From Bacteroidota bacterium (GTDB taxonomy: Bacteria > Bacteroidota > Bacteroidia > Chitinophagales > UBA10324): DNA of 37,845 nt. Made by a program: the position numbers and the translations under genes. Location: contig BJGQ01000031.1 in assembly GCA_014190575.1 (NCBI GenBank), positions 1 to 37,845 on the forward strand, read 5' to 3'. How positions within the stretch are numbered: the stretch's first letter is position 1; the number at the start of each line of letters is the position of its first letter. Shown here piece after piece: positions 15,380 through 29,176 of the stretch. Below the pieces are notes generated by a model. That model saw nothing but the letters and a program-made list of their open reading frames with translations, was not told the origin of the DNA and did not search any database.

Positions 15380-15419
15380 TGCCAGTTGACAGGTTGTTCT
15401 AATCAGTTTGCAGAAATTG

Positions 15420-15456
15420 AATTCCCGTTTTGCAATTGCAGAGCGGGAATTTTTAT
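15420..15456 (+). terminator. Rho-independent terminator after the OmpP1-like gene
   Basis: 8-bp perfect stem AATTCCCG/CGGGAATT (15420-15427 with 15444-15451), 16-base loop, then a T-rich tail (TTTTATTT). It ends the lipoprotein/OmpP1 unit and separates it from the decarboxylase gene. Confidence 0.75.
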
Positions 15457-15472
15457 TTCCAGATTTATACAA

Positions 15473-15502
15473 TTGAACTTAGCATTTCATTTCTCATTTT
15501 TG
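15473..15502 (+). promoter_or_regulatory. Bacteroidota-type promoter for the UbiD-family gene
   Basis: TTG (15473-15475), a spacer of exactly 19 bases, then CATTTTTG (15495-15502), one mismatch from TAnnTTTG. It lies between the upstream terminator and the ATG at 15530, predicting a leader of about 20 bases. Confidence 0.6.
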
Positions 15503-15529
15503 CGTTTCGATTCAAATCTTAAATCAAAA

Positions 15530-17461
15530 ATGTATTCCTCCCTAAGAGATTTTATAAAACAACTTGAAGATGCAGGCGAATTAGTTCGAGTTAAAGAATA
15601 TGTTAATCCGGAATTAGAAATTACAGAAATTACCGATCGCATTTCGAAAAATCACGGACCGGCTTTGTTGTTTGAAAATACCGGGACCGGAATTCCATTT
15701 CTGATTAATGCTTTTGGCTCTGAGAAGAGAATGTGCATGGCGCTTGGTGTGAATCATCTGGATGATGTAACAGTCCGTATTGAAACACTTTTCAAAACGC
15801 TGATGAAACCGAAGGATAACATAATTGAGAAACTGCGCATGCTTCCGCAACTTTCGCAAATGGCTTCGTGGATGCCGAAAGTAGTGAGAAGAAAAGGTGC
15901 GTGTCAGGAAGTGATAAATATGAATCCCGACATCACAAAATTTCCGGTGATGAAGTGCTGGCCCGAAGATGGCGGACCATTTATTACACTGCCGGTGATT
16001 CATACAAAAGACCCGAACACAAATATCCGCAATGTTGGAATGTATCGTATGCAGGTTTTTTCGTCCACTGTTACAGGCATGCACTGGCACAAGCACAAAG
16101 TTTCTGCTCGACATTTTCAGGAATACAAAAAGCTCGGAATAAAAATGCCGGTTGCAGTTGCACTCGGTGGCGATCCGGTTTATACTTATTGCGCCACTGC
16201 TCCGCTGCCCGATAATATTGATGAATACATGCTCGCTGGTTTTCTGCGTAATAGAAGAGTGGAACTCGTGCAGTGTATCACTCAGGATGTGCAGGTGCCA
16301 GCTGATGCTGAAATAATTATTGAAGGATATGTTGATCCGATGGAAGAAAATATTTTAGAAGGTCCGTTCGGCGATCACACCGGTTATTATTCGCTTGCTG
16401 ATTTCTACCCGAAGTTTCATATCACTTGCATTACTCATCGAAAGAATCCGATTTATCCTTCTACTATAGTTGGCATTCCACCTCAAGAAGATGCTTGGTT
16501 GGGAAAAGCAACCGAGCGAATTTTTCTCGCTCCGATTAAGATGACCATGATTCCTGAAATAAAAGATATGGAACTGCCGATTGAAGGTGTGTTTCATAAT
16601 CTCACCATTGTGAAAATAAAAAAGGAATATGCAGGTCAGGCAATCAAAGTCACGAATGCGATGTGGGGAGCTGGACAAATGATGTTCAATAAAATCCTGG
16701 TGATTGTAGATGAAGAAATTGACATACACGATTACAAAAAAGTAGCACAAATAATTTCTGAAAATGTTGACCCGCAGCAAGACATTTATTTTTCTCAAGG
16801 ACCAATGGATGTGCTCGATCATAGTTGCTCCAAATTTTCTTTCGGAGGAAAAATGTGTGTGGATGCAACAAAGAAATTTGAGGAGGAAAAGAGAAGTGAA
16901 AATGGACAATCGACAATTGATAATGTGTTATTCAAAAGAATTGATTCGCTAAAATTGATGAATGATTTTTCAGAAATTGTTCAGGTTAATGATTTGTTAC
17001 TTTCGCTAGGAATTTCTATTGTGTTTCTTTCCGTTCAGAAAAACAGAAAAAATCATTTGAGGGAATTGAGTGAATCACTTTTCAAAAAATCAGAATTGAG
17101 CAAAGTGAAATTTGTTATTTTTCTGGAAGCAAATGTTGACTGCTCTGATTTGAAAGATGCGGTATGGCGGTTCACAAACAACATTGATCCAAGGAGAGAT
17201 AGTTTTATTGTGGAACAAGCGCTCGATTACAAATCGAGCACAACCACAGAAGGAATTTCAAACATTGCATTTGATGGCACACGCAAAACAAAAGAGTTCG
17301 ACAATTTCGATCGCGACTGGCCAAACATTTTAGCAATGGATGAAAAAACAATACAATTGGTGGATGAAAAATGGGAGCGATACGGATTAGGAAAATTTAT
17401 TCCATCACCATCATTGAAATACAGAAAACAACTTTACAAAGGAGGAGCGGTAGCAGAATAG
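15530..17461 (+). CDS. UbiD-family decarboxylase (menaquinone-type)
   Basis: A 643-residue cytosolic decarboxylase of the UbiD family, whose members use prenylated FMN to decarboxylate aromatic or unsaturated acids. Landmarks are the N-terminal MYSSLRDFIKQLEDAGELVR, a central PVIHTKDPNTNIRNVGMYRM block, PVAVALGGDPVYTYCATAPL, and the family core EIIIEGYVDPMEENILEGPF followed by GDHTGYYS. Large Bacteroidota members are usually annotated as menaquinone biosynthesis decarboxylases; that role is inference here. The frame is open 48 codons further upstream to a non-ATG start, but that extension covers the terminator and promoter and has no family similarity, so the ATG at 15530 is chosen. No prenyl-FMN transferase (ubiX) is seen in the window. 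Confidence 0.9.
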   Translation: MYSSLRDFIKQLEDAGELVRVKEYVNPELEITEITDRISKNHGPALLFENTGTGIPFLINAFGSEKRMCMALGVNHLDDVTVRIETLFKTLMKPKDNIIEKLRMLPQLSQMASWMPKVVRRKGACQEVINMNPDITKFPVMKCWPEDGGPFITLPVIHTKDPNTNIRNVGMYRMQVFSSTVTGMHWHKHKVSARHFQEYKKLGIKMPVAVALGGDPVYTYCATAPLPDNIDEYMLAGFLRNRRVELVQCITQDVQVPADAEIIIEGYVDPMEENILEGPFGDHTGYYSLADFYPKFHITCITHRKNPIYPSTIVGIPPQEDAWLGKATERIFLAPIKMTMIPEIKDMELPIEGVFHNLTIVKIKKEYAGQAIKVTNAMWGAGQMMFNKILVIVDEEIDIHDYKKVAQIISENVDPQQDIYFSQGPMDVLDHSCSKFSFGGKMCVDATKKFEEEKRSENGQSTIDNVLFKRIDSLKLMNDFSEIVQVNDLLLSLGISIVFLSVQKNRKNHLRELSESLFKKSELSKVKFVIFLEANVDCSDLKDAVWRFTNNIDPRRDSFIVEQALDYKSSTTTEGISNIAFDGTRKTKEFDNFDRDWPNILAMDEKTIQLVDEKWERYGLGKFIPSPSLKYRKQLYKGGAVAE

Positions 17462-17500
17462 TGGGAATTGAAACATGAAAAGTAAAAAAAATACCAAGCA

Positions 17501-17549
17501 AAATATTGTCAATTGGCAATTGTCCATTATCAATTAATATTTCAATATT
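17501..17549. repeat. AT-rich region of CAATT/AATTG half-repeats
   Basis: Several CAATT-type words (TGTCAATTGGCAATTGTCC, TATCAATTAAT) are framed by AATATTG and CAATATT as an outer inverted pair. It may be a degenerate intergenic repeat or a weak hairpin after the decarboxylase gene; no function is assigned. Confidence 0.3.
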
Positions 17550-17568
17550 GTTAACCTTTACTTAACAC
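17550..17568 (+). promoter_or_regulatory. Candidate Pho-box-like direct repeat upstream of the response regulator
   Basis: GTTAACCT and CTTAACAC are repeated with an 11-base period, the half-site spacing of PhoB-type operators, and resemble the TTAAC-containing Pho boxes described in cyanobacteria. The position 46-64 bases before the regulator ATG fits autoregulation. Inference only. Confidence 0.35.
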
Positions 17569-17598
17569 TAATCGTCATAGCTACATACTATACTCCAT

Positions 17599-17606
17599 TA
17601 CTTTTG
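17599..17606 (+). promoter_or_regulatory. -7 element of the two-component operon
   Basis: TACTTTTG matches TAnnTTTG, 7 bases before the response-regulator ATG. There is no TTG at -33, which would fit an activator-dependent promoter served by the TTAAC repeats upstream. Confidence 0.45.
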
Positions 17607-17613
17607 CTCGCAG

Positions 17614-18294
17614 ATGAAAAAAAATAATTTCAAAATATTAGTGGTAGATGATGAACCGGATATTGTTGAGTTCATAGCATATAATCTGAAGAAGGAAGGT
17701 TACGAAGTTTGTACTGCCAACGACGGATTGGATGGAATTAAAATTGCTGAAAAAGAAAAACCTGATTTAATTATTCTCGATATCATGATGCCTCGATTGG
17801 ATGGAGTTGAAACCTGCGAACACCTTCGTCGCAATCCGATGTTTAAAAATACTTTGATTGTTTTTCTAACTGCACTGGGCGATGAACAATCAGAAATTAA
17901 AGGATTGAATGCAGGCGCTGATGATTACATCGTAAAGCCCATAAAGCCGAAATTGTTATTGTCGCGTGTGAATGCGTTGCTACGCAGATTGCAACCGGTC
18001 GATGTTGCAGGTAAAAATCAAATCGGTGATTTTATTATTGACATGGAACAATATCTTGTTCATTATAAAGATGAACATTTCTCGCTGCCGCGCAAGGAGT
18101 TCGAGCTATTGAATTTGCTAACATCAAAACCAGGGAAAGTTTTTCATAGAGATGAAATTCTGAATAAGGTTTGGGGTACTGAAGTAATTGTCGGCGACAG
18201 AACTATTGATGTTCACATTCGGAAATTGCGCCAGCGTTTCGGTGATGACCATATCGTTACAGTAAAGGGAATCGGATACAAATTTGATTCATAA
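17614..18294 (+). CDS. OmpR/PhoB-family response regulator
   Basis: A 226-residue DNA-binding response regulator. The receiver domain (about 6-122) has the acidic pocket VDDEPD, phosphoacceptor D56 in LIILDIMMP, Thr in FLTALG and K108 in DDYIVKPI. The winged-helix output domain (about 130-226) ends in WGTEVIVGDRTIDVHIRKLR and VKGIGYKFDS, typical of OmpR/PhoB proteins. It is partnered with the histidine kinase gene 62 bases downstream. Phosphate control (PhoB-like) is suggested by the kinase type and the TTAAC repeats upstream, but the sequence does not prove it. Confidence 0.95.
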   Translation: MKKNNFKILVVDDEPDIVEFIAYNLKKEGYEVCTANDGLDGIKIAEKEKPDLIILDIMMPRLDGVETCEHLRRNPMFKNTLIVFLTALGDEQSEIKGLNAGADDYIVKPIKPKLLLSRVNALLRRLQPVDVAGKNQIGDFIIDMEQYLVHYKDEHFSLPRKEFELLNLLTSKPGKVFHRDEILNKVWGTEVIVGDRTIDVHIRKLRQRFGDDHIVTVKGIGYKFDS

Positions 18295-18356
18295 TAAGAG
18301 AGTAAGGTTGATTAATTGATTCGTTTCATTCAATCTCTATTTGCAAATTTACGGCA

Positions 18357-19385
18357 ATGAAGAATCCCCGACCCTCCATCCTCGCTTTATATTCAAGTCT
18401 TGTTATTGCAATTATTGCATCTGTTGTTTGCGGATTTATTTTTAATCAAAAATCAGAGGCAATTATTGTAGGTGTAACAGTTTTTGTTACTGGCTTTGCT
18501 ATATTTTTTTATGCGCTTCAGATTTTTATTTACCGCAAGATTAAACTGGTTTACAAATCCATTCATCATTTGAAAGCAGGAAAGGAAGAGACTTCACTTA
18601 AAGAAAAATTGAATGAAGACCCTCTGGAAATGGTGAATAAAGAAGTAATGGAATGGGAACACGAGAAGGTGACGGAAATTGAACAACTCAAAAAGCTTGA
18701 AGTATATCGGAAGGAATTTGTGGCCAATGTTACACATGAATTAAAAACTCCGCTCTTCAGTATTCAGGGATACATACACACACTTCTTGATGGTGCGCTC
18801 GAAGATGAAGCTGTGAATAAAATGTTTCTTGAAAAAGCATCTCGCAATGTAGATCGTTTGACAAATCTGATTGCAGATTTGGAAGTAATCACTCAACTTG
18901 AATCGGGCAGTTACACTTTGGAGCCGGAGGTATTCGACATTCACATGCTAACCCAGGATGTGTTTGATTCACTGGAGATGAAAGCAAATGCGCGAAAAAT
19001 TTTATTATTGTTTAAAAAAGGATGCGACCATCCGTTTTATGTTTCTGCTGACAAAGAAAAAATTCGACAGGTACTTATAAATCTTTTGGATAATTCAATT
19101 AAATACGGAAAAGAAAGTGGGAACACAGTGGTAAGTTTTTATGATATGGATGAAAATATTTTGGTTGAAGTAACCGACGACGGAAATGGAATTGCAGAAC
19201 ACCACCTTATTCGATTGTTTGAGCGATTCTATCGTGCCGACAAAAGCCGCTCCCGCGATATTGGCGGAACAGGTTTGGGATTATCTATTGTAAAACACAT
19301 AATAGAGGCACATAACCAAACCATTAATGTGCGCAGCACTGTTGGCGTAGGAACCACTTTTGGGTTTACTCTCTTGAAGAAATAA
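18357..19385 (+). CDS. Sensor histidine kinase, PhoR-like
   Basis: A 342-residue inner-membrane kinase. Two adjacent helices (about 8-29 and 35-58) with almost no periplasmic loop are followed by a short linker and HisKA with phosphoacceptor H127 in FVANVTHELKTPL. The HATPase domain shows the N box (LINLLDNSIKYG), G1 (VTDDGNGI), an F box (LFERFYRADKSRSRDIGGTG) and G2 (GTGLGLSIVKHI). Lack of an extracellular sensor domain suggests sensing through the membrane or a partner protein, as with PhoR-type kinases. It is co-transcribed with the response regulator; the ATG start is supported by the basic residues before helix 1. Confidence 0.94.
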   Translation: MKNPRPSILALYSSLVIAIIASVVCGFIFNQKSEAIIVGVTVFVTGFAIFFYALQIFIYRKIKLVYKSIHHLKAGKEETSLKEKLNEDPLEMVNKEVMEWEHEKVTEIEQLKKLEVYRKEFVANVTHELKTPLFSIQGYIHTLLDGALEDEAVNKMFLEKASRNVDRLTNLIADLEVITQLESGSYTLEPEVFDIHMLTQDVFDSLEMKANARKILLLFKKGCDHPFYVSADKEKIRQVLINLLDNSIKYGKESGNTVVSFYDMDENILVEVTDDGNGIAEHHLIRLFERFYRADKSRSRDIGGTGLGLSIVKHIIEAHNQTINVRSTVGVGTTFGFTLLKK

Positions 19386-19530
19386 ATTCTTTGAATTTTA
19401 TTTTAAAATTAATTCTGATTGAATTATTCTAATATCATTATCATTTAGGTCGTGTATTTCTCCTTTGTCATTGCATTGTCAAAATCCTGCCGAATGATTT
19501 AAGTTATAAGCTATGGGGGTTATATAGAGG

Positions 19531-19538
19531 TAAATTTG
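19531..19538 (+). promoter_or_regulatory. -7 element of the HmuY-like/TonB-receptor operon
   Basis: TAAATTTG matches TAnnTTTG, 24 bases before the ATG at 19563. No TTG at the expected -33 position, so the promoter may need an activator. Confidence 0.45.
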
Positions 19539-19562
19539 CCCTCTGAAAAAACTAAAAACACA

Positions 19563-20831
19563 ATGAAAAAATTAATTACACTTTCTGTTGTTCTCCTCAC
19601 TTCAGTTAGCATTTATGCCCAAACTGCCGTTTACGATTCAGTTACTATGGGTGCAGGATACGCAAATCAAATTTGGTATAGCATGGCAAATGGTGAAGTA
19701 TCACAAACGCCAAATAATAACTGGGATTTAGCATTTACCACTTACTTCATGGGCGCAAGTGCATACATCAATTCGGCGCAAGGAGTTACACTTTATGCAA
19801 TTCCGAATACTGACATTTCAGGATTTGCAACGGTAATTGATACAACCGGATATTCAAGTTGGCAATCATTAAATAATTCTGATACCACCTGGAATAAAGG
19901 TGCCTTCAATCAAAACATGGGAAGTTTTCCAAATTATGGCTGGGGAAACTATGATAATGTAACGCATGAAATTATCGGCGACTCTTTGTTTTTAGTGCGC
20001 ACCGGAATGAATCCTAATTATTCGTTCAAAAAATTGTGGGTGATAAAAAAAGATGTTAGCGGAAACTGGATTATCAGATCGGCAAACATTGATAACACAA
20101 GTGATGTAACTGATACCATATTGTATAGCAGTTATTCAACAAAAAATTTCTCTTATTATTCTTTAAACAATCAGGCTGATCTAAATCGTGAGCCTTTAAC
20201 AACTGATTGGGATATAACTTTTGCCCGTTACACTGCAGATGTTTTAACAACTACCTGCATTCCCTCAACAGGATATTTTTCAGTAACAGGAGTTTTAAGT
20301 AATAAAAAAATTGTTGTTGCTCAAGCAGATGGCGCTGATTTTTCAACAGTTGATTTTGCCAACTATCAAAGTCAGTTGGATTCAAATATTTCAACTATAG
20401 GTTTTGATTGGAAGTGTTCAGGCGTGCTTACTGCCAATGTTGTTTACTTTATTAAAGCAAATGGAGGAAATGTTTGGAAAGTACAATTCACACAACCTGC
20501 ACCAACAGGTGCAACAGGGAAGATATTTTTTGAGAAAGAATTATTAACAACTGGAATTTCTCCTTTGAATGAAACAATAAATTCAATTTCAATTTATCCA
20601 AACCCAACTGCTGGAAATTCATCACTTATTGTTGATGCAAAAAAATCAGGTGCTGCTTCATTCAGCATATACAATACTGTTGGTGCGTTGGTAAATATTC
20701 AATCAACAACATTGAAACAAGGAATGAATATTCTTCCAATCAATACCGAATCACTTGCTGATGGAATTTATTTCATTAAAAATTCGAATGAAAAAAATTC
20801 AGCAGTACTGAAATTAATTATTGCCCGTTAA
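19563..20831 (+). CDS. HmuY-like ligand-binding protein with T9SS C-terminal sorting domain
   Basis: A 422-residue secreted protein with a Sec signal peptide (MKKLITLSVVLLTSVSIYAQ) and no lipobox. The central part (about 22-335) resembles the lipoprotein encoded at 23096: VTMGAGYANQIWYS, NNWDLAFTT, TWNKGAFN, TDWDITFARY, YFSVTGVLSN and STIGFDWK each have counterparts there. That pattern is characteristic of HmuY-family hemophore-like proteins. The last 75 or so residues are a type A T9SS sorting domain (ISIYPNPTAGNSSLIVDA, then LADGIYFIKN and KLIIAR). It should thus be exported by T9SS and released or bound to the surface. The central domain has only one His (VTHEI), so His-His heme ligation as in Porphyromonas HmuY is unlikely; Met or other ligands are possible. 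It lies 24 bases before the receptor gene. The ATG at 19563 is preferred over the upstream TTG. Confidence 0.78.
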   Translation: MKKLITLSVVLLTSVSIYAQTAVYDSVTMGAGYANQIWYSMANGEVSQTPNNNWDLAFTTYFMGASAYINSAQGVTLYAIPNTDISGFATVIDTTGYSSWQSLNNSDTTWNKGAFNQNMGSFPNYGWGNYDNVTHEIIGDSLFLVRTGMNPNYSFKKLWVIKKDVSGNWIIRSANIDNTSDVTDTILYSSYSTKNFSYYSLNNQADLNREPLTTDWDITFARYTADVLTTTCIPSTGYFSVTGVLSNKKIVVAQADGADFSTVDFANYQSQLDSNISTIGFDWKCSGVLTANVVYFIKANGGNVWKVQFTQPAPTGATGKIFFEKELLTTGISPLNETINSISIYPNPTAGNSSLIVDAKKSGAASFSIYNTVGALVNIQSTTLKQGMNILPINTESLADGIYFIKNSNEKNSAVLKLIIAR

Positions 20832-20855
20832 AAAAATTGGTGAAACAATAAGTTG

Positions 20856-23078
20856 ATGATCAGAATCAAATTAATTGGAATTTTTTTATTGTCGCTTGTT
20901 AGCGTTGAGCAAGGTTTTGCCCAACAACAAGCGACAATAAAAATTTTTGATTCGCAAAATCATCAACCGTTAACCGGAGTTGTAGTTGTTGCAGAAAACA
21001 AGCCCTATAAACAAATTGTTAGTGTTACCGATGAAGATGGATTCTCAAAGTTGCAGATTATCATACCATGTTTTATCACTCTTCATTTAATTGGATACAA
21101 TGAAATAAAATTTCAATTGAACGGAAATGATACCACAATTAATCTTTCTCCCAATGAAAATAATTTGAATGAAGTAGTTGTAACCGGTGAATACAATTTA
21201 ACAACAAGCGATAAATCGGTTTACAACATTCGTGTAATTGATGCAAAAGAAATTGAAGCAAAGCAATCGAGCAGTTTGGCTGATTTATTAAATACACAAT
21301 TAAATATCCGCTTATCAGAAGACAATATCCTTGGAACCGGATTAAGTATTAATGGATTGAATGGACAAAACATAAAAATTCTGATTGATGGTGTTCCGGT
21401 TATCGGAAGAGAAAACGGAAACATTGACCTCTCACAAATCTTATTGTCAACTGTTGAACGAATTGAATTAATAGAAGGCCCAATGAGTTCGATGTACGGA
21501 ACCGATGCCATTGGCGGATTGATAAACATCATTACAAAACAGAGTTCGAAAAACAGAACTGAAGGAAATGCAAACGCGTTGTATGAATCTGATGGTCGTT
21601 ATAATTTTGATGGAAATGTTTTTTTCAAAATTGGTTCCGATCATTTTTCGGCCAATGGCGGACGAAATTTTTTTGATGGGTTTAGTAATTCTGATACAGG
21701 AAGATGGCAGCAATGGAAGCCATACGAACAACATTTCTTTGGGGTAGCTTATGGTTTGAAATCGCGGTTTACTGATGTACAGTTGAAAGCCGATTACTTT
21801 CATCAAACATCTCAGAACAAAGGCGAACCTGTTATTACCCCTTACGAAGCATATGCGTTCGATGAATATTATTTAACTGATAGATGGAATATTACATTGT
21901 TACAATCAGTTCGACTCACACATAACCTGAAATTAGATTTCACTAATGCGTATTCAAATTACAGTCGCATCAGAAATACTTATCGCAAAGATTTGGTTTT
22001 ACTTACTCAGGAATTAATTCCGCTAACGAGTATGCAGGATACTTCTTTGTTTAATGCGTTTGCATTCAGAGGAAGCATCAGCAAAGTTTTAGCTGTAAAT
22101 AATTTCAGTTTCCTCGCAGGTTACGATATCAATATTGAAAACGGGAGCGGACAAAAATTATTAAATCACAAACAATCAATTGAAGATTATGCCGCATTCG
22201 GAAGTTTTCAATGGAAATTAAATAAATTCACTTTTCGACCTGCACTTCGTTATGCTTTCAACACCCGATACACCGAACCTATAATTCCTTCGTTAAATTT
22301 TGTTTTCAATGCTGATAAAAATTTAGCACTTCGTTTAAGTTATTCACGCGGATTCAGAGCACCATCGTTAAAAGAAATGGATTTGTATTTTGTTGATGTC
22401 AATCATAACATTCATGGCAATCCTGATTTGAAAGCTGAAGATTCACATCACATTTTATTTTCTGCCAACTACTCCAAAAAAATTGATCAGTCTGTTATTC
22501 AACTCAAAGGAGCATTTGCTTATAACAATATTCAAAACATCATTACTCTGGCTCTGGCCAATTCTTCTCAACTACTCTACACATACATCAACATAGATAA
22601 TTATCAAACTGCTGTTGGTTCCATTGAAGCTAATTATCAATTTCAATCGTTCAGTTTTAACAATGGATTTTCGTTAACCGGTTTATACAATTCGCTTTCA
22701 GCAAACGATAATTCTGTTCCACAATTTTCTTATTCACCTGAATGGAATTCGCAGCTTTCATTTGAAATGAAAAAACTGAACATGCAAATGAACATTCAAT
22801 TGAAAGCCACCGGAACAACCCTAGGCTATGTGTTGGACGATAGTTCGAATGTTTATCAAAATGAAATCAGTTCTTACACCATGTTGGACGCGGGAGTGAC
22901 AAAAAGTTTTCTGAAAAAAAGAATTTCAATTTCAGTTGGCGGAAAAAATTTACTGAATGTGATTAACATCAATAGCTCAGTATCAGGTGGCATTCATTCA
23001 GATAATAGCGGAACTGTTCCGAACAGTTGCGGACGATTTGCCTACTTGAAACTTGCTTTTAAATTTTACAATCAATAG
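20856..23078 (+). CDS. TonB-dependent outer-membrane receptor, HmuR-like candidate
   Basis: A 740-residue TonB-dependent transporter. Signal peptide (to about residue 23), carboxypeptidase-regulatory-like beta domain (about 25-100; ATIKIFDSQNHQPLTGVVVV), plug domain (about 115-225; LADLLNTQLNIRL, IKILIDGVPVIG, VERIELIEGPMSSMYGTDAI) and a beta-barrel to the end. The barrel holds a FRAP box (F500) and an NPDL box (N522) with two His between them (H517, H520). Paired FRAP/NPDL boxes with a nearby His are found in heme receptors such as HemR/HmuR, but FRAP/NPDL also occurs in other receptors, so heme as ligand is inferred mainly from the two HmuY-like neighbours. ATG at 20856 is used; a TTG lies one codon earlier. 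Confidence 0.9.
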   Translation: MIRIKLIGIFLLSLVSVEQGFAQQQATIKIFDSQNHQPLTGVVVVAENKPYKQIVSVTDEDGFSKLQIIIPCFITLHLIGYNEIKFQLNGNDTTINLSPNENNLNEVVVTGEYNLTTSDKSVYNIRVIDAKEIEAKQSSSLADLLNTQLNIRLSEDNILGTGLSINGLNGQNIKILIDGVPVIGRENGNIDLSQILLSTVERIELIEGPMSSMYGTDAIGGLINIITKQSSKNRTEGNANALYESDGRYNFDGNVFFKIGSDHFSANGGRNFFDGFSNSDTGRWQQWKPYEQHFFGVAYGLKSRFTDVQLKADYFHQTSQNKGEPVITPYEAYAFDEYYLTDRWNITLLQSVRLTHNLKLDFTNAYSNYSRIRNTYRKDLVLLTQELIPLTSMQDTSLFNAFAFRGSISKVLAVNNFSFLAGYDINIENGSGQKLLNHKQSIEDYAAFGSFQWKLNKFTFRPALRYAFNTRYTEPIIPSLNFVFNADKNLALRLSYSRGFRAPSLKEMDLYFVDVNHNIHGNPDLKAEDSHHILFSANYSKKIDQSVIQLKGAFAYNNIQNIITLALANSSQLLYTYINIDNYQTAVGSIEANYQFQSFSFNNGFSLTGLYNSLSANDNSVPQFSYSPEWNSQLSFEMKKLNMQMNIQLKATGTTLGYVLDDSSNVYQNEISSYTMLDAGVTKSFLKKRISISVGGKNLLNVININSSVSGGIHSDNSGTVPNSCGRFAYLKLAFKFYNQ

Positions 23079-23095
23079 ACCTTAATTAATAAATA

Positions 23096-24157
23096 ATGAT
23101 TTTTCGTTTTCGATTTCTATTTCTTGCTCTTATCGTTTCGCTGTTCGCATCTTGTTTTAAAAAAGATGATTCAATTGTTTTGCAAGCACCCGGAAATGTG
23201 GAAGTGGATCAGGTTGCAATGGGACCTGATTATTTGAATCAGATTTATTACCAGCTTTCAACTAATGAAACTTTTATGAGTGATCACCGCAGTTGGGATT
23301 TGGCTTTTGAAACTTCAGCAAACGGTTATCACATCTGGGTCAATGGAAGCAATCAGATTTTTGTTAACAATACTAATAGTTCAAACTTTGATAATATTAC
23401 TGACACAGTTGGTTCAAATTGGTTAATGGATGCAAGTAGCTGGAATAAAGATTCAACGGCTATAGGTGAATGGATAAATTCAAATCCTGTTGTTGATCCA
23501 TCGGTTCCTAAAGATGATTTGTTTAATTCTTCTCCTAGTAGAATTGAAGAAATGGTAACTTCTACCCGGGTTTATTTAATTGATCTTGGACCTGATATGC
23601 TTGCAGCTGAAAGATATAAAAAAATTGTATTCGAATCTTTTGATCAGCACCAATATACTTTCAAGTATGCCAATTTAAATAATTCAGATTTTCATGAAAT
23701 TACTATACAAAAAGAGACTGATTATGCCTATACTTATTTCAGTATTCGCAATGGCAATCAGGTTGTATATCCTGAGCCTATAAAACCAAAATGGGATATT
23801 TTATTTACACGCTACCGCACCATTTTATTTTCAGGCGGAATTACTCTTCCATACATTGTAACAGGTGTTTTAATTAATCCGGATGGATATAGTGTGGCAA
23901 TGGATACATCTGTTTCATTTAATGATATGGATTATAATTATGCAAAAAATTTAATTTACAAATCAAATCGTGATGCTATTGGATTTGATTGGAAGCACAT
24001 TAACTATCAATCAGCTTCCGCAACTTATGTTGTTGATCCAACTAAAATTTATTTGATAAAAGATAAACTTGGTTATTACTGGAAACTCCACTTCATTGGT
24101 TTTTACAACGACCAGGGAGTTAAAGGGTATCCGCAGTTTGAGTTTCAGCGTTTGTAA
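23096..24157 (+). CDS. HmuY-family lipoprotein (heme-binding-protein-like)
   Basis: A 353-residue lipoprotein. The signal peptide ends in LIVSLFAS-C20, followed by a Lys/Asp start (FKKDD), consistent with outer-membrane attachment. The body has the HmuY-family pattern: VAMGPDYLNQIYYQ, RSWDLAFET, PKWDILFTRY, PYIVTGVLINP, AIGFDWK and the end block IYLIKDKLGYYWKLHFIGFY followed by NDQGVKGYPQFEF. It is a paralogue of the T9SS-sorted protein at 19563. It contains several His (for example in GYHIWV and DQHQYTF) that might coordinate heme. Only 17 bases separate it from the receptor gene, so the three genes form one operon. The last 38 bp overlap the 3' end of the opposite-strand Kir channel gene. 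Confidence 0.8.
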   Translation: MIFRFRFLFLALIVSLFASCFKKDDSIVLQAPGNVEVDQVAMGPDYLNQIYYQLSTNETFMSDHRSWDLAFETSANGYHIWVNGSNQIFVNNTNSSNFDNITDTVGSNWLMDASSWNKDSTAIGEWINSNPVVDPSVPKDDLFNSSPSRIEEMVTSTRVYLIDLGPDMLAAERYKKIVFESFDQHQYTFKYANLNNSDFHEITIQKETDYAYTYFSIRNGNQVVYPEPIKPKWDILFTRYRTILFSGGITLPYIVTGVLINPDGYSVAMDTSVSFNDMDYNYAKNLIYKSNRDAIGFDWKHINYQSASATYVVDPTKIYLIKDKLGYYWKLHFIGFYNDQGVKGYPQFEFQRL

Positions 24158-25115
24158 TTATCTCGGGCAACTCCGCATGTTCAAAATCAGAAATACGATC
24201 AAGATAGTGATGAGTATATCCCGCTGATTGATTGATTTCGAAGTTGCGGATAAATTTTGCGCCCCATATTATTTCATCATGGCGATACGAAAAACGAGTA
24301 TGAACATGCTGCGAAAAAGTTTCGTCATAAGCTTTTATGAAGATAAGAATTTCTACATCTGCTTTTTCTAAATCTTCTTTTGACCACCCATAAATCGGGC
24401 TCTTTTCATTTATAGGGTGAACCACGGTCCATGATAGTGGAAAGAAGCGAATCATTTTTGTTTCCAGTTCCATTGGATAAAATCTTCTGATAAGGCCTGC
24501 AGGTTCATCATTCATTAACGATATTGTAACTGATACCTCTACTTCATTCAGAATATTGCGTCGAATATTTGCAATGCGAAACATTAAACCCCGCTGGGTT
24601 ATTTTATAAGGAGCCATAAGTGCAATGGCACTATTGATAATTTTTGCCTGTGGCCGGCTAAAACGCCCATATAACAAACCGGTTGCCAGCGCAAACGATA
24701 ATAACCCAACCAATGATTCAATTGCTGCAACTGCGCTAGCCCAAAAACCCATGGGACTTATTCTTCCATAACCAACAGTAGTGAGTGTTTGCGCGCTGAA
24801 GAAAAATGCATCCAGACATTTTGTTGATTCTGATGCTACATCCATTCCCGGAAAATGATTGGCCCCAATGAAAAAATAAACGATGGCGAATATTGAATTG
24901 ATAATTAAAAAACCAATGAACACCATTATGCTGAACTTTAGCCATGGCATGGTTATAAGCACATTATAAATATCATAAGACCGGAAAAACGGAAGCCCGA
25001 AATTTTTTACATTGAATTCACCTTTCTCATTCACTGCGCGGTTGCGTTGTGCATTATTGCTGAACCCGCTGTCGGTAATTTCTTTTTGATTTTGAGGGGA
25101 AGATTTTTTACTCAT
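24120..25115 (-). CDS. Inward-rectifier-type potassium channel (KirBac-like)
   Basis: A 331-residue inner-membrane K+ channel. It has a slide-helix region with FFRSYDIYNVLITMPWLKF (about 43-61), an outer helix (about 62-83), a pore loop with the selectivity filter TVGYG (113-117) and an inner helix (about 123-150, WASAVAAIESLVGLLSFALA). The cytoplasmic beta-sandwich domain typical of Kir channels follows (RIANIRRNILNEVEVSVTIS, FPLSWTVVHPINEKSPIYG, DETFSQHVHTRFSYRHDEI). A bacterial Kir tetramer is expected. ATG start at 25115, 45 bases after the stop of the PepSY-like gene. The 3' end overlaps the HmuY lipoprotein gene by 38 bp on the other strand; the overlap encodes the variable tail after the channel domain. 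Confidence 0.95.
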   Translation of the reverse strand: MSKKSSPQNQKEITDSGFSNNAQRNRAVNEKGEFNVKNFGLPFFRSYDIYNVLITMPWLKFSIMVFIGFLIINSIFAIVYFFIGANHFPGMDVASESTKCLDAFFFSAQTLTTVGYGRISPMGFWASAVAAIESLVGLLSFALATGLLYGRFSRPQAKIINSAIALMAPYKITQRGLMFRIANIRRNILNEVEVSVTISLMNDEPAGLIRRFYPMELETKMIRFFPLSWTVVHPINEKSPIYGWSKEDLEKADVEILIFIKAYDETFSQHVHTRFSYRHDEIIWGAKFIRNFEINQSAGYTHHYLDRISDFEHAELPEIITNAETQTADTL

Positions 25116-25160
25116 AATATTTATTAAGTAGAATAAAATTAAAATACATTTTATCAGGTT

Positions 25161-25610
25161 TTATTCTTCTTCCACTTTACTCACAAAATTTCCATCGGCA
25201 TCAAACGAGTAAGTAAAAAGTTTGCCTGTGTTTTTTTCTAAAGAATAATATTCAATTCCTTTCTTGGTTTCTGATTTATAGTAGCCGGTAATTTTTCCTC
25301 CGGAAATATTTGAAGTAAGATAAGTAATTGCAGCTGCAGGAAATTCTTCAGCTTTCAGTTTAGTATCAGTACTAATCCAGTCACCCATAGCCATTGCATA
25401 CATAACAGTAACAGAATGTTTTTCCTGCGAAAAAGTTGTCTCCAAAAATCCGGGGCCTGGCTGAATCCAAACCACTGCACCAACAGTTGGGAATTTCTCA
25501 GCAAAATGTTTTTTGACTGTTTCCGGAATCAATTTGTTGTCTATTGGCAATTGAGCGAAGGAAACAAAAAATGAAAAACTAAAAATGAAAACCAGAATAC
25601 AGACTTTCAT
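25161..25610 (-). CDS. Small secreted protein, PepSY-like/DUF2874 type
   Basis: A 149-residue exported protein with signal peptide (MKVCILVFIFSFSFFVSFAQ). The mature part shows the PepSY-like beta-lactamase-inhibitor-protein-like pattern: VKKHFAEKFPTVGAVVWIQ, a middle strand with SVTVMYAMAMGDWISTD, then a second FPAAAITYLTSNISGGKI and KKGIEYYSLEKNTGKLFTYS. In this group F/Y-P-x-A...V-W motifs recur; function is unknown, with periplasmic inhibitor or binding roles proposed. The frame is open to a GTG at 25631, but the ATG at 25610 gives the better signal peptide. It follows gyrB by 45 bases and precedes the Kir channel gene, all on one strand. Confidence 0.7.
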   Translation of the reverse strand: MKVCILVFIFSFSFFVSFAQLPIDNKLIPETVKKHFAEKFPTVGAVVWIQPGPGFLETTFSQEKHSVTVMYAMAMGDWISTDTKLKAEEFPAAAITYLTSNISGGKITGYYKSETKKGIEYYSLEKNTGKLFTYSFDADGNFVSKVEEE

Positions 25611-25655
25611 CAGCGACAAATAATTTTTCACTTTTAAATTTTAGTTTTTAATTAA

Positions 25656-27620
25656 TTAAATATCCAGCTTCGCATACTTCGCATGCTTCTCAATAAATTC
25701 TCTGCGTGGTGGCACATCATCACCCATCAGCATTGAGAAAATATGGTCTGACTCAGCGGCGCTTTCAATAGAAACCAGTTTCAAAGTGCGTGTTTCAGGA
25801 TTCATGGTAGTTGACCACAGTTGTTCTGCATTCATTTCTCCAAGGCCCTTGTAGCGCTGAATGCCAACTGAATCATCTTTTCCCCCGCCAATGCGAGCCA
25901 CAGCGGCTTTGCGGTCATCATCGTTCCAGCAATATTCCTGTTCCTTTCCTTTCTTCACCAAGTAAAGCGGAGGCGATGCTATATATATATGTCCGCGCTC
26001 AATCAACAATTTCATGTAGCGGAAAAAGAAAGTCAGAATCAAAGTAGTGATGTGACTACCATCCACATCAGCATCCGTCATGATAATTATTTTATGATAT
26101 CTGAGTTTATCAATGTTCAGTGCTTTGTCATCTTCCTTGGTTCCGATGCTCACACCGAGTGCAGTGAAAATATTTTTTATTTCCTCGTTGTCGTAAATCT
26201 TGTGCTCCATTGCTTTCTCCACATTCAAAATTTTTCCGCGCAGTGGAAGTATCGCCTGGAATGCACGGTTACGACCCTGCTTAGCTGTACCACCAGCCGA
26301 ATCTCCTTCGACTAAATAAATTTCACATTGAGAAGCATCGTTGTTCGAACAGTCGGCCAATTTACCGGGCAATCCGCTTCCCGACATTCCGTTTTTGCGT
26401 TGAACCAATTCTCTCGCTTTGCGCGCAGCATTACGCGCAGTAGCCGAAAGAATTACTTTGTTCACCATCATCTTAGCCTCCTTCGGATTTTCTTCGAGGA
26501 AGTGAGTGAGAAAATCACTGACAGCAGAATCCACAATTCCTGTAACTTCAGAGTTACCAAGTTTCGATTTTGTTTGACCTTCAAACTGCGGTTCAGGAAC
26601 TTTGCACGAAACAACAGCAGTCAATCCTTCACGAAAATCATCACCGGTCACTTCGAAATTTAATTTTTCTAATAATTTATTCTTGTCGGCATACGATTTA
26701 AACACGCGGGTAATGGCACGACGAAAACCTGCAATGTGAGTTCCGCCTTCAATGGTGTTGATGTTATTTACATAAGAAAATACATTCTCGGTATATCCTG
26801 TGTTGTACTGCATGGCCACTTCAACAATCACATTATCCTTTGTGCCTTCCATATAAATCGGTTCAGCATTCATTGCCTCGCGAGTTCCATCCAGATATTT
26901 TACAAACTCTTTTAATCCTAATTCAGAATAGAAACGCTCGCTGAAAACAGTTCCGTTCTCATCAATATTTCTTTTATCTGAAAGAGTGATTGCAATTCCA
27001 CGATTCAGAAACGACAACTCGCGCATACGAGTCGCGATAGTATCATACTTGTATTCCAGGATTTTGAAAATGGAACCATCGGGTACAAATGTTACTTCGG
27101 TTCCGGTTCTATCCGCATCGCCAACAACTTTAACCGGATATAATGGTTTTCCAATTTCATATTCCTGCATCCATTCTTTTCCGTCACGAAAAACACGAAC
27201 CGTCAGGTGTGATGAAAGCGCATTCACACAACTTACACCCACACCATGTAATCCACCTGAAACTTTATAAGTGTCTTTATCAAATTTTCCTCCGGCATGT
27301 AACACAGTCATCACCACTTCAAGCGCACTTTTGTTTTCGCCTTTGTGGTGTCCGGTTGGAATTCCACGACCATCATCCAACACGGTGATGGAATTATCTT
27401 CATTGATAGTGACGAAAATATTTTTGCAATATCCCGCCAATGCTTCATCTATCGAATTATCAACTACCTCGTAAACTAAGTGGTGTAAACCGCGAAACCC
27501 GATGTCGCCGATATACATTGCCGGGCGCATGCGCACCGCTTCCAAACCTTCGAGAACCTGTATGTTCTCCGCCGTGTATTCACTTGATTTTTTCTTTTCC
27601 AAAGTTGCTTCTTCTAACAT
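25656..27620 (-). CDS. gyrB: DNA gyrase subunit B
   Basis: The ATPase subunit of DNA gyrase, which introduces negative supercoils together with GyrA. It has 654 residues, the common short form without the E. coli insertion. GHKL ATPase domain: YEVVDNSIDEALAGYC, the DDGRGIP motif and GGLHGVGVSCVNAL. Transducer domain follows, then TOPRIM with VEGDSAGGTAKQGRNR, TDADVDGSHI and the C-terminal IQRYKGLGEMNAEQLW plus TMNPETRTL. The PLRGKILNVEKA quinolone-region motif is intact. ATG start at 27620. Downstream on the same strand are the PepSY-like and Kir channel genes; there is no dnaN/recF nearby, so this is not an origin-type gyrB locus. Confidence 0.98.
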   Translation of the reverse strand: MLEEATLEKKKSSEYTAENIQVLEGLEAVRMRPAMYIGDIGFRGLHHLVYEVVDNSIDEALAGYCKNIFVTINEDNSITVLDDGRGIPTGHHKGENKSALEVVMTVLHAGGKFDKDTYKVSGGLHGVGVSCVNALSSHLTVRVFRDGKEWMQEYEIGKPLYPVKVVGDADRTGTEVTFVPDGSIFKILEYKYDTIATRMRELSFLNRGIAITLSDKRNIDENGTVFSERFYSELGLKEFVKYLDGTREAMNAEPIYMEGTKDNVIVEVAMQYNTGYTENVFSYVNNINTIEGGTHIAGFRRAITRVFKSYADKNKLLEKLNFEVTGDDFREGLTAVVSCKVPEPQFEGQTKSKLGNSEVTGIVDSAVSDFLTHFLEENPKEAKMMVNKVILSATARNAARKARELVQRKNGMSGSGLPGKLADCSNNDASQCEIYLVEGDSAGGTAKQGRNRAFQAILPLRGKILNVEKAMEHKIYDNEEIKNIFTALGVSIGTKEDDKALNIDKLRYHKIIIMTDADVDGSHITTLILTFFFRYMKLLIERGHIYIASPPLYLVKKGKEQEYCWNDDDRKAAVARIGGGKDDSVGIQRYKGLGEMNAEQLWSTTMNPETRTLKLVSIESAAESDHIFSMLMGDDVPPRREFIEKHAKYAKLDI

Positions 27621-27657
27621 GTTTTTATTGTTAAAATCCGGTTTTTATGATTGTGTT

Positions 27658-27665
27658 CAAAAGTA
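27658..27665 (-). promoter_or_regulatory. Possible -7 element for gyrB
   Basis: On the reverse strand TACTTTTG, matching TAnnTTTG, 37 bases before the gyrB ATG. No TTG at exact N19; weak. Confidence 0.4.
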
Positions 27666-27824
27666 GTTTTTTCATTCTTATAAAACGAATGAAAAGCAGT
27701 ATTGATGAAGCTTTATTTATTCACTTTGTCTGTTGAAAAGTTGGTTGAAAAAAGTTGAGGCTCATAACACATTTTTGGTGGCACGATTCTTAATGAACAG
27801 ACCTGAAAAAACTAAAATAAAATC

Positions 27825-28376
27825 ATGAAAAAATTCCGCTCGATAGTCTTAATGCTCGTTTTGCCATCACTAGTTTTCGCACAAAAAAACAAACCTGTTG
27901 CTCCTGTTTTGCCCATGGATGCCGAAACAAATCTCATTAGCTACACTGGAGTAGTGGATGCAACCGGTGTAACAAGTAAAGAATTATTTAAGCGAACCAT
28001 CGCATGGGCGAAAGAGTTTTATCCTATTCCAAGTTCTGTATTGCAAGTCCAGGATTCAGTGAATGGGAAAATTGTTTGCAAAGGAAAATTCGACACAAAA
28101 AAAACAAAGGGTGGTCAGCAGGTTGCAGGCGATAGAATTATGTACAACCTCACGATTCAATTTAAGGAAGGAAGATACAAGTATGAAATCACGAAGGTGT
28201 TGGTTCAGAGTTCTACAAGTATTCCTTGTGAAAAATACTTTGATGAAAATGACCCGTTAGCCGAAGAGCATTTTAATACTTTAACACAAGTGGATGAAAA
28301 CCTCACCAACATTGCCAACTCACTCAAAACAAGATTGGAACAACCAAGTGTTAAGGTGAAGAAAGATGAATGGTAG
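27825..28376 (+). CDS. Secreted DUF4468-type protein (TBP-like fold)
   Basis: A 183-residue exported protein with a clear signal peptide (MKKFRSIVLMLVLPSLVFAQ). The mature part, with LISYTGVVDATGVTSKELFK and AKEFYPIPSSVLQVQD near the front and GDRIMYNLTIQFKEGRYKYE in the middle, matches the pattern of Bacteroidota proteins annotated as DUF4468 domain-containing with a TBP-like fold, whose function is unknown. It is transcribed alone: a possible promoter TTG (27745-27747)-N22-CATTTTTG (27770-27777) lies upstream, and a strong hairpin terminator follows at 28405. It is divergent from gyrB. Confidence 0.75.
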   Translation: MKKFRSIVLMLVLPSLVFAQKNKPVAPVLPMDAETNLISYTGVVDATGVTSKELFKRTIAWAKEFYPIPSSVLQVQDSVNGKIVCKGKFDTKKTKGGQQVAGDRIMYNLTIQFKEGRYKYEITKVLVQSSTSIPCEKYFDENDPLAEEHFNTLTQVDENLTNIANSLKTRLEQPSVKVKKDEW

Positions 28377-28404
28377 AAAATAATTTTTTTAAGAAAGTTT
28401 GAAG

Positions 28405-28432
28405 CGGCTCAGATTATTCTGAGCCGTTTTTA
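28405..28432 (+). terminator. Rho-independent terminator after the DUF4468 gene
   Basis: Perfect 9-bp stem CGGCTCAGA/TCTGAGCCG, tetraloop TTAT, then five T and TATTT. The T run touches the stop codon of the convergent peptidase E gene, so the structure probably serves both converging transcripts. Confidence 0.9.
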
Positions 28433-29176
28433 TTTCCTAGGAATTAAAATTTCAGCTAGCGGCTTAAACTCTTTTGAAATTTCAATAACCTCATGAATAA
28501 TTTCTCCATTCTTTTTATAAACTCTAAATGAGTTTGCTCCTTTTTTGCTCGTTAATATTTTATATGAATCAGTATTCCTGATTTCAATAGCCGAACAATC
28601 ATCGCACGCAATTCCAACGCCTCCTTTTTTCAAAATCATTTTTCGGAAATGTGCATCGCGTTTCTCTTTTAAATAATGCGGACAAAAAGTAGTGTTCACT
28701 AAATCCAATCCTTTCACCCGAATGTGATTCCATTTTTCAGGATGATAATAAAACATTGAATCACTGTGTCCGAATTTAAACCAGCAAATTGCTCCGGCAC
28801 TTGTTCCCGCCATAATGGTTCCGCTGTTCCATGCTTTCTTCAATAAAATATCAACTCCCAACAATCGCCAGCGGCGCATCATCTTCAAAGTATTTCCGCC
28901 CCCAACATATATAATGTCGGCTCTTTCAATCTTGTCGTGAATTTCTTTTTTCGAAACTTTGCGTTTCAACAGAAATAAAACTTCAGGTCTGCAACCCAAT
29001 TTATCACCATAAACTTTCTGAAAATTTTCCCAATACATAGGGTCATCGCTAGATGCTGTTGGGATAAACAGCACACGCGGATTTTTCTTTCTTGTTAATT
29101 TAACAATGTGTTCATCAATTGACCGGGTGGCGCCTTCAATCATGCTGCCCCCGCCAATCGCAACTATGGTGCGCAT
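28430..29176 (-). CDS. Peptidase family S51 (peptidase E / cyanophycinase-like)
   Basis: A 248-residue cytosolic protein of family S51. It starts MRTIVAIGGGSMIEG, has YVGGGNTLKMMRRWR, and carries the nucleophile elbow AGTSAGAICW with S126. FCPHYLKEKRDAHF holds the likely catalytic H167, as in the family's CPHY block. Characterised members are aspartyl dipeptidase PepE and cyanophycinase; the length and the single domain fit PepE better, though Bacteroidota members are untested as far as I know. ATG start at 29176. The 30-residue membrane peptide gene ends 38 bases upstream on the same strand. The stop overlaps the T tract of the upstream-facing terminator. Confidence 0.88.
   Translation of the reverse strand: MRTIVAIGGGSMIEGATRSIDEHIVKLTRKKNPRVLFIPTASSDDPMYWENFQKVYGDKLGCRPEVLFLLKRKVSKKEIHDKIERADIIYVGGGNTLKMMRRWRLLGVDILLKKAWNSGTIMAGTSAGAICWFKFGHSDSMFYYHPEKWNHIRVKGLDLVNTTFCPHYLKEKRDAHFRKMILKKGGVGIACDDCSAIEIRNTDSYKILTSKKGANSFRVYKKNGEIIHEVIEISKEFKPLAEILIPRK

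Follow-up and report, generated by a model that had tools for sequence, protein, structure and literature searches.

A 37,845-nucleotide stretch from the draft genome of a Bacteroidota bacterium of the Chitinophagales (assembly GCA_014190575.1, contig BJGQ01000031.1, positions 1 to 37,845; hereafter the window) carries three neighbouring genes on the forward strand, named here A, R and B. Gene R encodes a TonB-dependent receptor, gene B a lipoprotein of the HmuY family and gene A a paralogue of B that carries a sorting domain of the type IX secretion system (T9SS). These genes most probably constitute an outer-membrane cassette for the acquisition of heme (metalloporphyrin) in a bacterium that seems, by its gene content, unable to make heme. 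This reading is built on computed results, namely the family of the two proteins, the fold of B, the paralogy, the linkage of the genes, the sorting signals and the fact that neither HemB nor ferrochelatase was found in the draft. We regard the cassette as a new variant of the Hmu system.

The initial annotation had described A and B as paralogues with five common segments, separated from R by 24 and 17 bases. The coordinates give the same A-R and R-B gaps, and the segments are present in both proteins in identical order (VTMGAGYANQIWY / VAMGPDYLNQIYY, WDLAF, WDITF / WDILF, VTGVL and IGFDWK). Gene starts are those of a simple open reading frame (ORF) lister, except that gene A, for which it picks a TTG at 19536, is taken from the ATG at 19563. 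BLASTP aligns A with B at 28% identity over a length of 310 amino acids (aa) (E 7e-20, single comparison). Their proposed membership of the HmuY family (PF14064, cut-off 27 bits) is clear for B, with 66.0 bits over two stretches, and marginal for A, with 27.3 bits; in the search of the whole host genome, A scored 24.5 bits, under the cut-off. The two proteins are the sole PF14064 matches in that genome at E <= 0.001. In our alignments, all 75 rows of B (alignment A5: the window and 74 of the 80 related loci described below) match PF14064, as do 21 of the 27 rows of A, the other 6 being unmatched at E 0.01. In addition, a PDB search with the profile of A recovers HmuY (E 5e-5).

Each of the two proteins consists of two homologous HmuY-like modules in tandem. 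For this comparison, half-protein profiles were aligned with hhalign, each as a single comparison. Within A, the two half-protein profiles match each other over 112 columns (E 7.9e-8), and within B over 55 columns (E 2e-7). Across the two proteins, first halves match each other at E 2.8e-25 and second halves at E 1.7e-36. Since first halves pair with first halves and second halves with second halves, the internal duplication of the module probably predates the split between A and B. Solved members of the family have a single HmuY domain per protein; A and B differ from them in this respect, which concerns architecture and not the family match.

The HmuY fold was also recovered by structure prediction for B, the protein that was modelled. 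From its single sequence, AlphaFold gave a predicted local distance difference test score (pLDDT) of 36.4; the 75-row alignment was used instead and gave a pLDDT of 92.3 with a predicted template modelling score of 0.85. In a Foldseek search of the PDB with this model, ranks 1-10 are all HmuY-type chains, 8 of them at E <= 0.001, and two of the ten bear other titles (4gbs, "putative lipoprotein"; 8b6a, BfrB). With VIA-align, eight HmuY-type entries were found at Z-scores from 16.0 (6r2h, root mean square deviation (rmsd) 6.0) to 12.1 (8b61, BfrC), including HmuY of Porphyromonas gingivalis (3h8t) at 15.3 with an rmsd of 2.8 over 140 residues. The next entry has a Z-score of 5.9, and entries at this value and under were rejected as relatives. 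The end points of the match of B on single-domain HmuY chains lie at residues 32 and 353; if this range is taken at face value, our guess would be that the two modules of the model exchange strands or sit nested.

The two paralogues carry different export signals, as had been suggested. A matches Por_Secre_tail (PF18962, 45.7 bits, cut-off 27) and TIGR04183 (43.2 bits, cut-off 23). Por_Secre_tail is found in all 27 rows of the A alignment (A3), and a T9SS tail in 55 out of 56 A proteins of the related loci. The exception (L131:3903-4904) has no T9SS tail match and shows a lipobox-like N-terminus, as if its export route had been switched. The translocon component SprA, the only one looked for, is present in the host (SprA_N, 514.1 bits). 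For B, the lipobox cysteine (Cys20) is invariant in 75 out of 75 rows; it is followed by a lysine at +3 in 65 rows and by an acidic residue at +5 in 73. The surface-export signal of Bacteroidota lipoproteins is C-X-K-(D/E)2, with an optimal form C-X-K-(D/E)2-X in Capnocytophaga canimorsus, where its position is called critical (PMC5080379). The pattern C-X-[KR]-[DE]-[DE] fits 38 of the 75 B sequences, that of the window (CFKKDD) being one place off.

The initial annotation would have been contradicted by three genes unlinked in neighbouring genomes or by the absence of an HmuY fold from the predicted structures. Neither was observed: the A-R-B order recurs in other genomes, and B has the fold given above. 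From 60 genomes that were not hand-picked, 35 have PF14064 matches and 22 have A-R-B in order on one contig (host included in both counts); one of the 22 (G020) has extra genes between A and R. In two others (G009 and G010) the cassette is interrupted by a contig end inside A, and G029 presents the order R-B-A. A larger set came from a public collection: the search with the B sequence alone returned 8 pattern-matching stretches, none of which was confirmed, and alignment A2 as query gave 234 confirmed relatives. The loci used here are the 80 of these that are most similar to the B of the window, and they partly overlap the 60 genomes. Among these 80 loci, 41 are A-R-B and 15 have additional genes between A and R (56 in total). 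The other 24 comprise seven R-B loci with a contig end <1.3 kb before R, seven B genes without adjacent R, six R-B loci without A, two B genes alone at a contig end and two A-B loci. In the R-B loci without A, the contig starts near R in two cases (L097, L128) and within heme genes in a third (L113); in one of the two A-B loci (L136), R is divided over two ORFs. The median gap is 1 base between R and B (69 loci, 25 of them with overlaps by the starts of the ORF lister) and 9 bases between A and R (the 41 direct cases). The three genes are presumably co-transcribed.

In a FastTree phylogeny, 53 A proteins group in a single clade (support 1.0), separate from that of the 80 B proteins (support 0.683). 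The tree took 53 of the 56 A proteins (length >350 aa), the tailless one being among the three omitted. As A and B fall in separate clades, the pair results from an old duplication; a recent gene duplication as the source of A and B was rejected. To judge how common B is, we sampled 296 Bacteroidota genomes, at least 30 of which match the B profile at E <= 1e-5; at most 7 candidates were scored per genome, so that 30 is a lower bound. B-type proteins are therefore widespread yet far from universal. Three loci with a B-type gene without adjacent receptor come from records labelled Azovibrio, Bacteroides and Saccharospirillaceae (L083, L084 and L144, respectively); the last two are close to contig ends, and the taxonomic labels of the three may be due to misbinning.

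The host lacks detectable genes for two steps of heme synthesis: neither HemB nor ferrochelatase was found in its genome (98.3% complete draft), which encodes one heme-copper oxidase (COX1). In a hand-picked set of 26 genomes, the same 7 hold both HemB and ferrochelatase, while 17 of the 18 cassette carriers are without both. In the 60 genomes, where cassette, HemB and family labels were compiled by hand, HemB is present in 2/22 genomes with the cassette vs. 22/38 without (absent from 20/22 vs. 16/38; Fisher P = 2.6e-4). The association holds for the 48 genomes that are at least 90% complete (1/18 vs. 20/30; P = 4.8e-5) and for any PF14064 match (6/35 with vs. 18/25 without; P = 3.6e-5). Moreover, in two families (f13 and f15) the three genes occur in the member that lacks HemB, in f15 in the order R-B-A (G029), and PF14064 was not matched in the members that are HemB-positive.

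The receptor and the company it keeps also bear on the presumed ligand. FRAP and NxxL boxes with a histidine between them are a signature of heme receptors (PMC9331221), and its residues R501, P503, H517, N522 and L525 are invariant in the 31 rows of the R alignment (A4). Heme-uptake genes lie between A and R in two loci (L094, L147) and directly before R in a third (L113, A being off the contig). HemS reaches 237.9, 241 and 283 bits in L094, L147 and L113, respectively (cut-off 24), and its neighbours are a periplasmic binding protein, a FecCD permease and an ATP-binding cassette (ABC) ATPase. By Pfam scan, all four genes were assigned in L094, two in L147 and HemS in L113, the remainder being assigned by BLAST cluster. 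The ATPase of L094 is above the NCBI heme-ABC cut-off (277.8 vs. 261 bits).

Other genes also occur in the cassette region; some of their members were scanned with Pfam and others assigned by BLAST cluster. An exported CbiX-like protein is encoded in 9 out of 80 loci and a PepSY_TM_like_2 protein in 8 of them, between A and R in L080, L104, L107, L109, L117, L120, L123 and L137 and before R in L097, where the contig starts; PepSY_TM_like_2 is present in all but L080. One member of each kind was scanned with Pfam (loci L109 and L120), and the rest were assigned by cluster. The exported CbiX-like protein could act in an outer step by which iron is removed from heme. Three further kinds of protein were seen within the cassette or immediately ahead of R: DUF6607, with Pfam matches in L039 and L106 and cluster members in L126 and L148; an FMN_bind/Fer4_5 protein, matched in L080 and assigned by cluster in L128; and DUF6686, matched in L148 and assigned by cluster in L080 and L097.

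Several of our results weigh against heme acquisition by such a cassette. The whole-model TM-scores of the ten best Foldseek hits are low (0.19-0.30 by query and 0.34-0.55 by target, rmsd 14-19 Å), which may reflect the comparison of a two-module model with one-domain chains. The studied members of the HmuY family bind heme through His/His or Met/Met ligands, but no conserved His/Met pair was seen in the alignments of A or B. The best-kept His/Met residues are M42 (53/75 rows) and M88 (46/75) in B and H135 (46/54) and M29 (28/54) in A; invariant residues include D93, W127 and Y130 in A (54/54) and Y253 and W299 in B (75/75). His/Met ligands are also missing from some members of the HmuY family (PMC12106395). 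R scores under the NCBIfam heme-receptor cut-offs (TIGR01785, 100.3 vs. 316.85 bits; TIGR01786, 92.8 vs. 323.75 bits), and its best NCBIfam score, above these, is obtained with the BtuB model (127.5 bits, cut-off 599.7); none passes. Against the PDB, R matches the Colicin I receptor (169.3 bits) and BtuB (up to 115.5 bits) ahead of PhuR (78.3 bits) and ShuA (72.5 bits). The permease and binding protein of L094 score with B12-type and other models, all under cut-off. Searches of the host genome, which is itself a draft, gave no HemS, CbiX or PepSY_TM_like_2. With one genome per family (22 families), the HemB association weakens to a median P of 0.063; part of the signal is therefore due to common ancestry. 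Two cassette genomes (G011 and G020) hold HemB, four HemB-positive genomes (G032, G047, G051 and G056) have other HmuY arrangements, and 7 of the 60 genomes have neither HmuY nor HemB, so that other ways of living without HemB exist.

Comparison with known systems places the cassette close to HmuY-HmuR of P. gingivalis (hmuYRSTUV), in which a lipoprotein of the HmuY family likewise adjoins a TonB receptor. P. gingivalis HmuY has one domain (chains of 182-191 residues), whereas here each protein has two modules and a second copy is of T9SS type. Homologues of hmuSTUV are not among the neighbours scanned with profiles (15386-29176), HmuS not having been searched genome-wide; the longest ORF of the window, 863 aa, is too short for HmuS (1469 residues in Bacteroides thetaiotaomicron). 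BtuG, the lipoprotein of B12 import in Bacteroides, belongs to another protein family and serves another ligand. The BtuB-BtuG system is nevertheless similar in that a surface lipoprotein and a TonB receptor take up a tetrapyrrole (PMC10404256). In Flavobacterium psychrophilum, HfpY is an HmuY-like protein co-transcribed with its receptor HfpR, and its heme binding has been assayed; there is a single HmuY-like protein, the order is hfpR, DoxX-type gene, hfpY, and the part of the article used here mentions no T9SS partner (PMC9331221). Tenacibaculum maritimum has an HmuY lipoprotein with HmuR (PMC10288586), while RhuH of Riemerella anatipestifer is reported to be structurally unlike HmuY (PMC11967795).

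The nearest precedents for A are also found in Bacteroidota. F. columnare HmuY (C6N29_01035) has an HmuY domain with a Por_Secre_tail and is described as secreted by the T9SS; it is treated as a single gene, and a linked lipoprotein paralogue is not mentioned in the portion of the article cited (PMC9618737). The initial annotation had presented a T9SS-delivered family member as a second HmuY-type protein in the operon: its presence here beside the receptor and the lipoprotein stands, whereas a T9SS-tailed HmuY as such was already known. In the hmu operon of P. endodontalis (PMC11208336) and in Prevotella intermedia PIOMA14_I_1196-98 (PMC10434189), a gene with a T9SS sorting domain adjoins hmuY, in an operon or co-regulated by iron. 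In the portions cited, the T9SS protein is not called an HmuY paralogue, and that of P. endodontalis is given a beta-barrel-like predicted shape (PMC11208336). The open-licence literature searched (supplements excluded) yielded no linked pair around one receptor, no tandem modules and no connection with a lack of heme synthesis.

Under the heme-acquisition reading, R would be the TonB-dependent importer and B, probably outward-facing, its close partner, as suggested by adjacent genes with often overlapping reading frames. A would cross the outer membrane by the T9SS and then be released or fixed at the surface, where it would capture heme for B and R as a farther-reaching collector. In the relay that the initial annotation had suggested, heme would pass from A to B and then to R. 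The strongest competing explanation, which we consider unlikely while keeping it in view, is that A and B bind different ligands and dock on R independently of each other; the ligands could be, for example, heme for one and metal-free porphyrin for the other, or heme taken from different carriers. In its favour, the two proteins form separate clades (supports 1.0 and 0.683) with different conserved residues, and HmuY homologues of B. fragilis differ in ligand, one preferring metal-free porphyrins and a third binding neither heme nor protoporphyrin (PMC12106395). Against it, the three genes are kept with one receptor in 56 of the 80 loci, which fits one ligand better, as an argument and not as a test.

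That the cassette imports cobalamin or another corrinoid appears improbable. R scores higher with BtuB than with heme receptors, both by profile and by structure, which points in this direction, as does the CbiX-like chelatase lipoprotein in the cassette region of 9 out of 80 loci. The HmuY family and fold, the FRAP/His/NxxL residues of R, the HemS and the heme ABC ATPase (above its cut-off) that relatives carry in the cassette region and the failure to find HemB and ferrochelatase in the host all favour heme. Finally, it is very improbable that this is an ordinary Hmu system in which A is a recent accidental duplicate of B with no separate function: other bacteria do have a T9SS-tailed HmuY or T9SS genes next to hmuY, but the 53 A sequences cluster in a clade distinct from that of the 80 B sequences, indicating an old split, and both copies stand beside R in 56 of the 80 loci.

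The features of the cassette and of its upstream region are collected in the table. A PhoB/PhoR-type pair lies directly upstream of A and possibly regulates the cassette; genes of the same broad clusters are upstream in L069, L070, L071 and L073 but not in L072. The direct repeat that follows, with its 11-bp period, resembles the sites to which PhoB/OmpR-type regulators bind. In the window alone, the motif YTGTCA-N5-YTGTCA (at most 1 mismatch) gives one match, no more than chance (0.70 expected). Among genus relatives, it occurs without mismatch in L069, L071, L072 and L073 and with 1 mismatch in L070. With at most 1 mismatch, it was found upstream of A in 14 out of 53 loci (L069-L073, L077, L078, L114, L118, L121, L122, L125, L133 and L139, several of them close relatives) vs. 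0.2 expected from mononucleotide shuffles and 18 out of 765 other genes. Closer to A, TAAATTTG resembles the Bacteroidota -7 element consensus TAnnTTTG. Scans for sigma-70 promoters (20 found vs. 23.1 expected) and terminators (2 vs. 2.5) are both at chance level. On the other side, the 3' end of a gene for a Kir-type potassium channel (24120-25115, reverse strand) overlaps the 3' end of B by 38 bases, and a homologue of this channel adjoins B in L069, L071 and L073.

Table. Positions in the window of the A-R-B cassette, its protein features and the candidate control elements upstream.
Feature	Position	Strand	Basis or remark
PhoB/PhoR-type response regulator and histidine kinase	17614..19385	+	Directly upstream of A; under NCBIfam PhoB/PhoR cut-offs
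TTGTCA-N5-TTGTCA direct repeat, candidate operator	19465..19481	+	Upstream of A
TAAATTTG, -7-like promoter element	19531..19538	+	
Gene A, T9SS-type HmuY-family protein, 422 aa	19563..20831	+	HmuY and Por_Secre_tail profiles
A, N-terminal Sec-type signal	residues 1-20		Read by eye
A, first HmuY-like module, ~residues 21-186	19623..20120	+	Profile match to second module (E 7.9e-8, 112 columns)
A, second HmuY-like module, ~residues 187-335	20121..20567	+	Pfam and profile comparison
A, type A T9SS sorting domain (PF18962/TIGR04183), residues 344-420	20592..20822	+	Profile matches
Gene R, TonB-dependent receptor, 740 aa, plug and barrel	20856..23078	+	ATG start; profiles and PDB matches; additional CarboxypepD_reg-like extension scoring under cut-off
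R, FRAP...His517...NPDL region (heme/hemoglobin receptor-type signature)	22353..22430	+	Invariant residues in 31-row alignment
Gene B, HmuY-family lipoprotein, 353 aa	23096..24157	+	Profile, predicted fold and structure matches
B, anchor Cys20 and following lysine/acidic stretch CFKKDD	23153..23170	+	Resembles C-X-K-(D/E)2, shifted one place
B, first HmuY-like module, ~residues 30-202	23183..23701	+	Profile comparison and structure matches
B, second HmuY-like module, ~residues 203-353	23702..24154	+	Pfam, profile comparison and structure matches

The HmuY papers that we found concern host-associated or pathogenic Bacteroidota. The present host is presumably free-living, and the samples named in record titles of related loci include groundwater, ponds and lakes. 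We tentatively propose, at somewhat below even odds, that the cassette is a two-hemophore machine of environmental heme auxotrophs, in which a T9SS-delivered tandem HmuY passes heme to a lipid-anchored tandem HmuY capping a TonB receptor, and that the respiration of many uncultured Bacteroidota thus relies on scavenged heme. If true, one recurrent cassette would explain the use of heme-copper oxidases by cells without HemB and ferrochelatase in many Bacteroidota known mainly from metagenome-assembled genomes. Heme would then be a growth factor for such lineages, and the cassette, with its three defined genes, would allow one to ask why a single receptor retains two hemophore-like partners that are exported differently.

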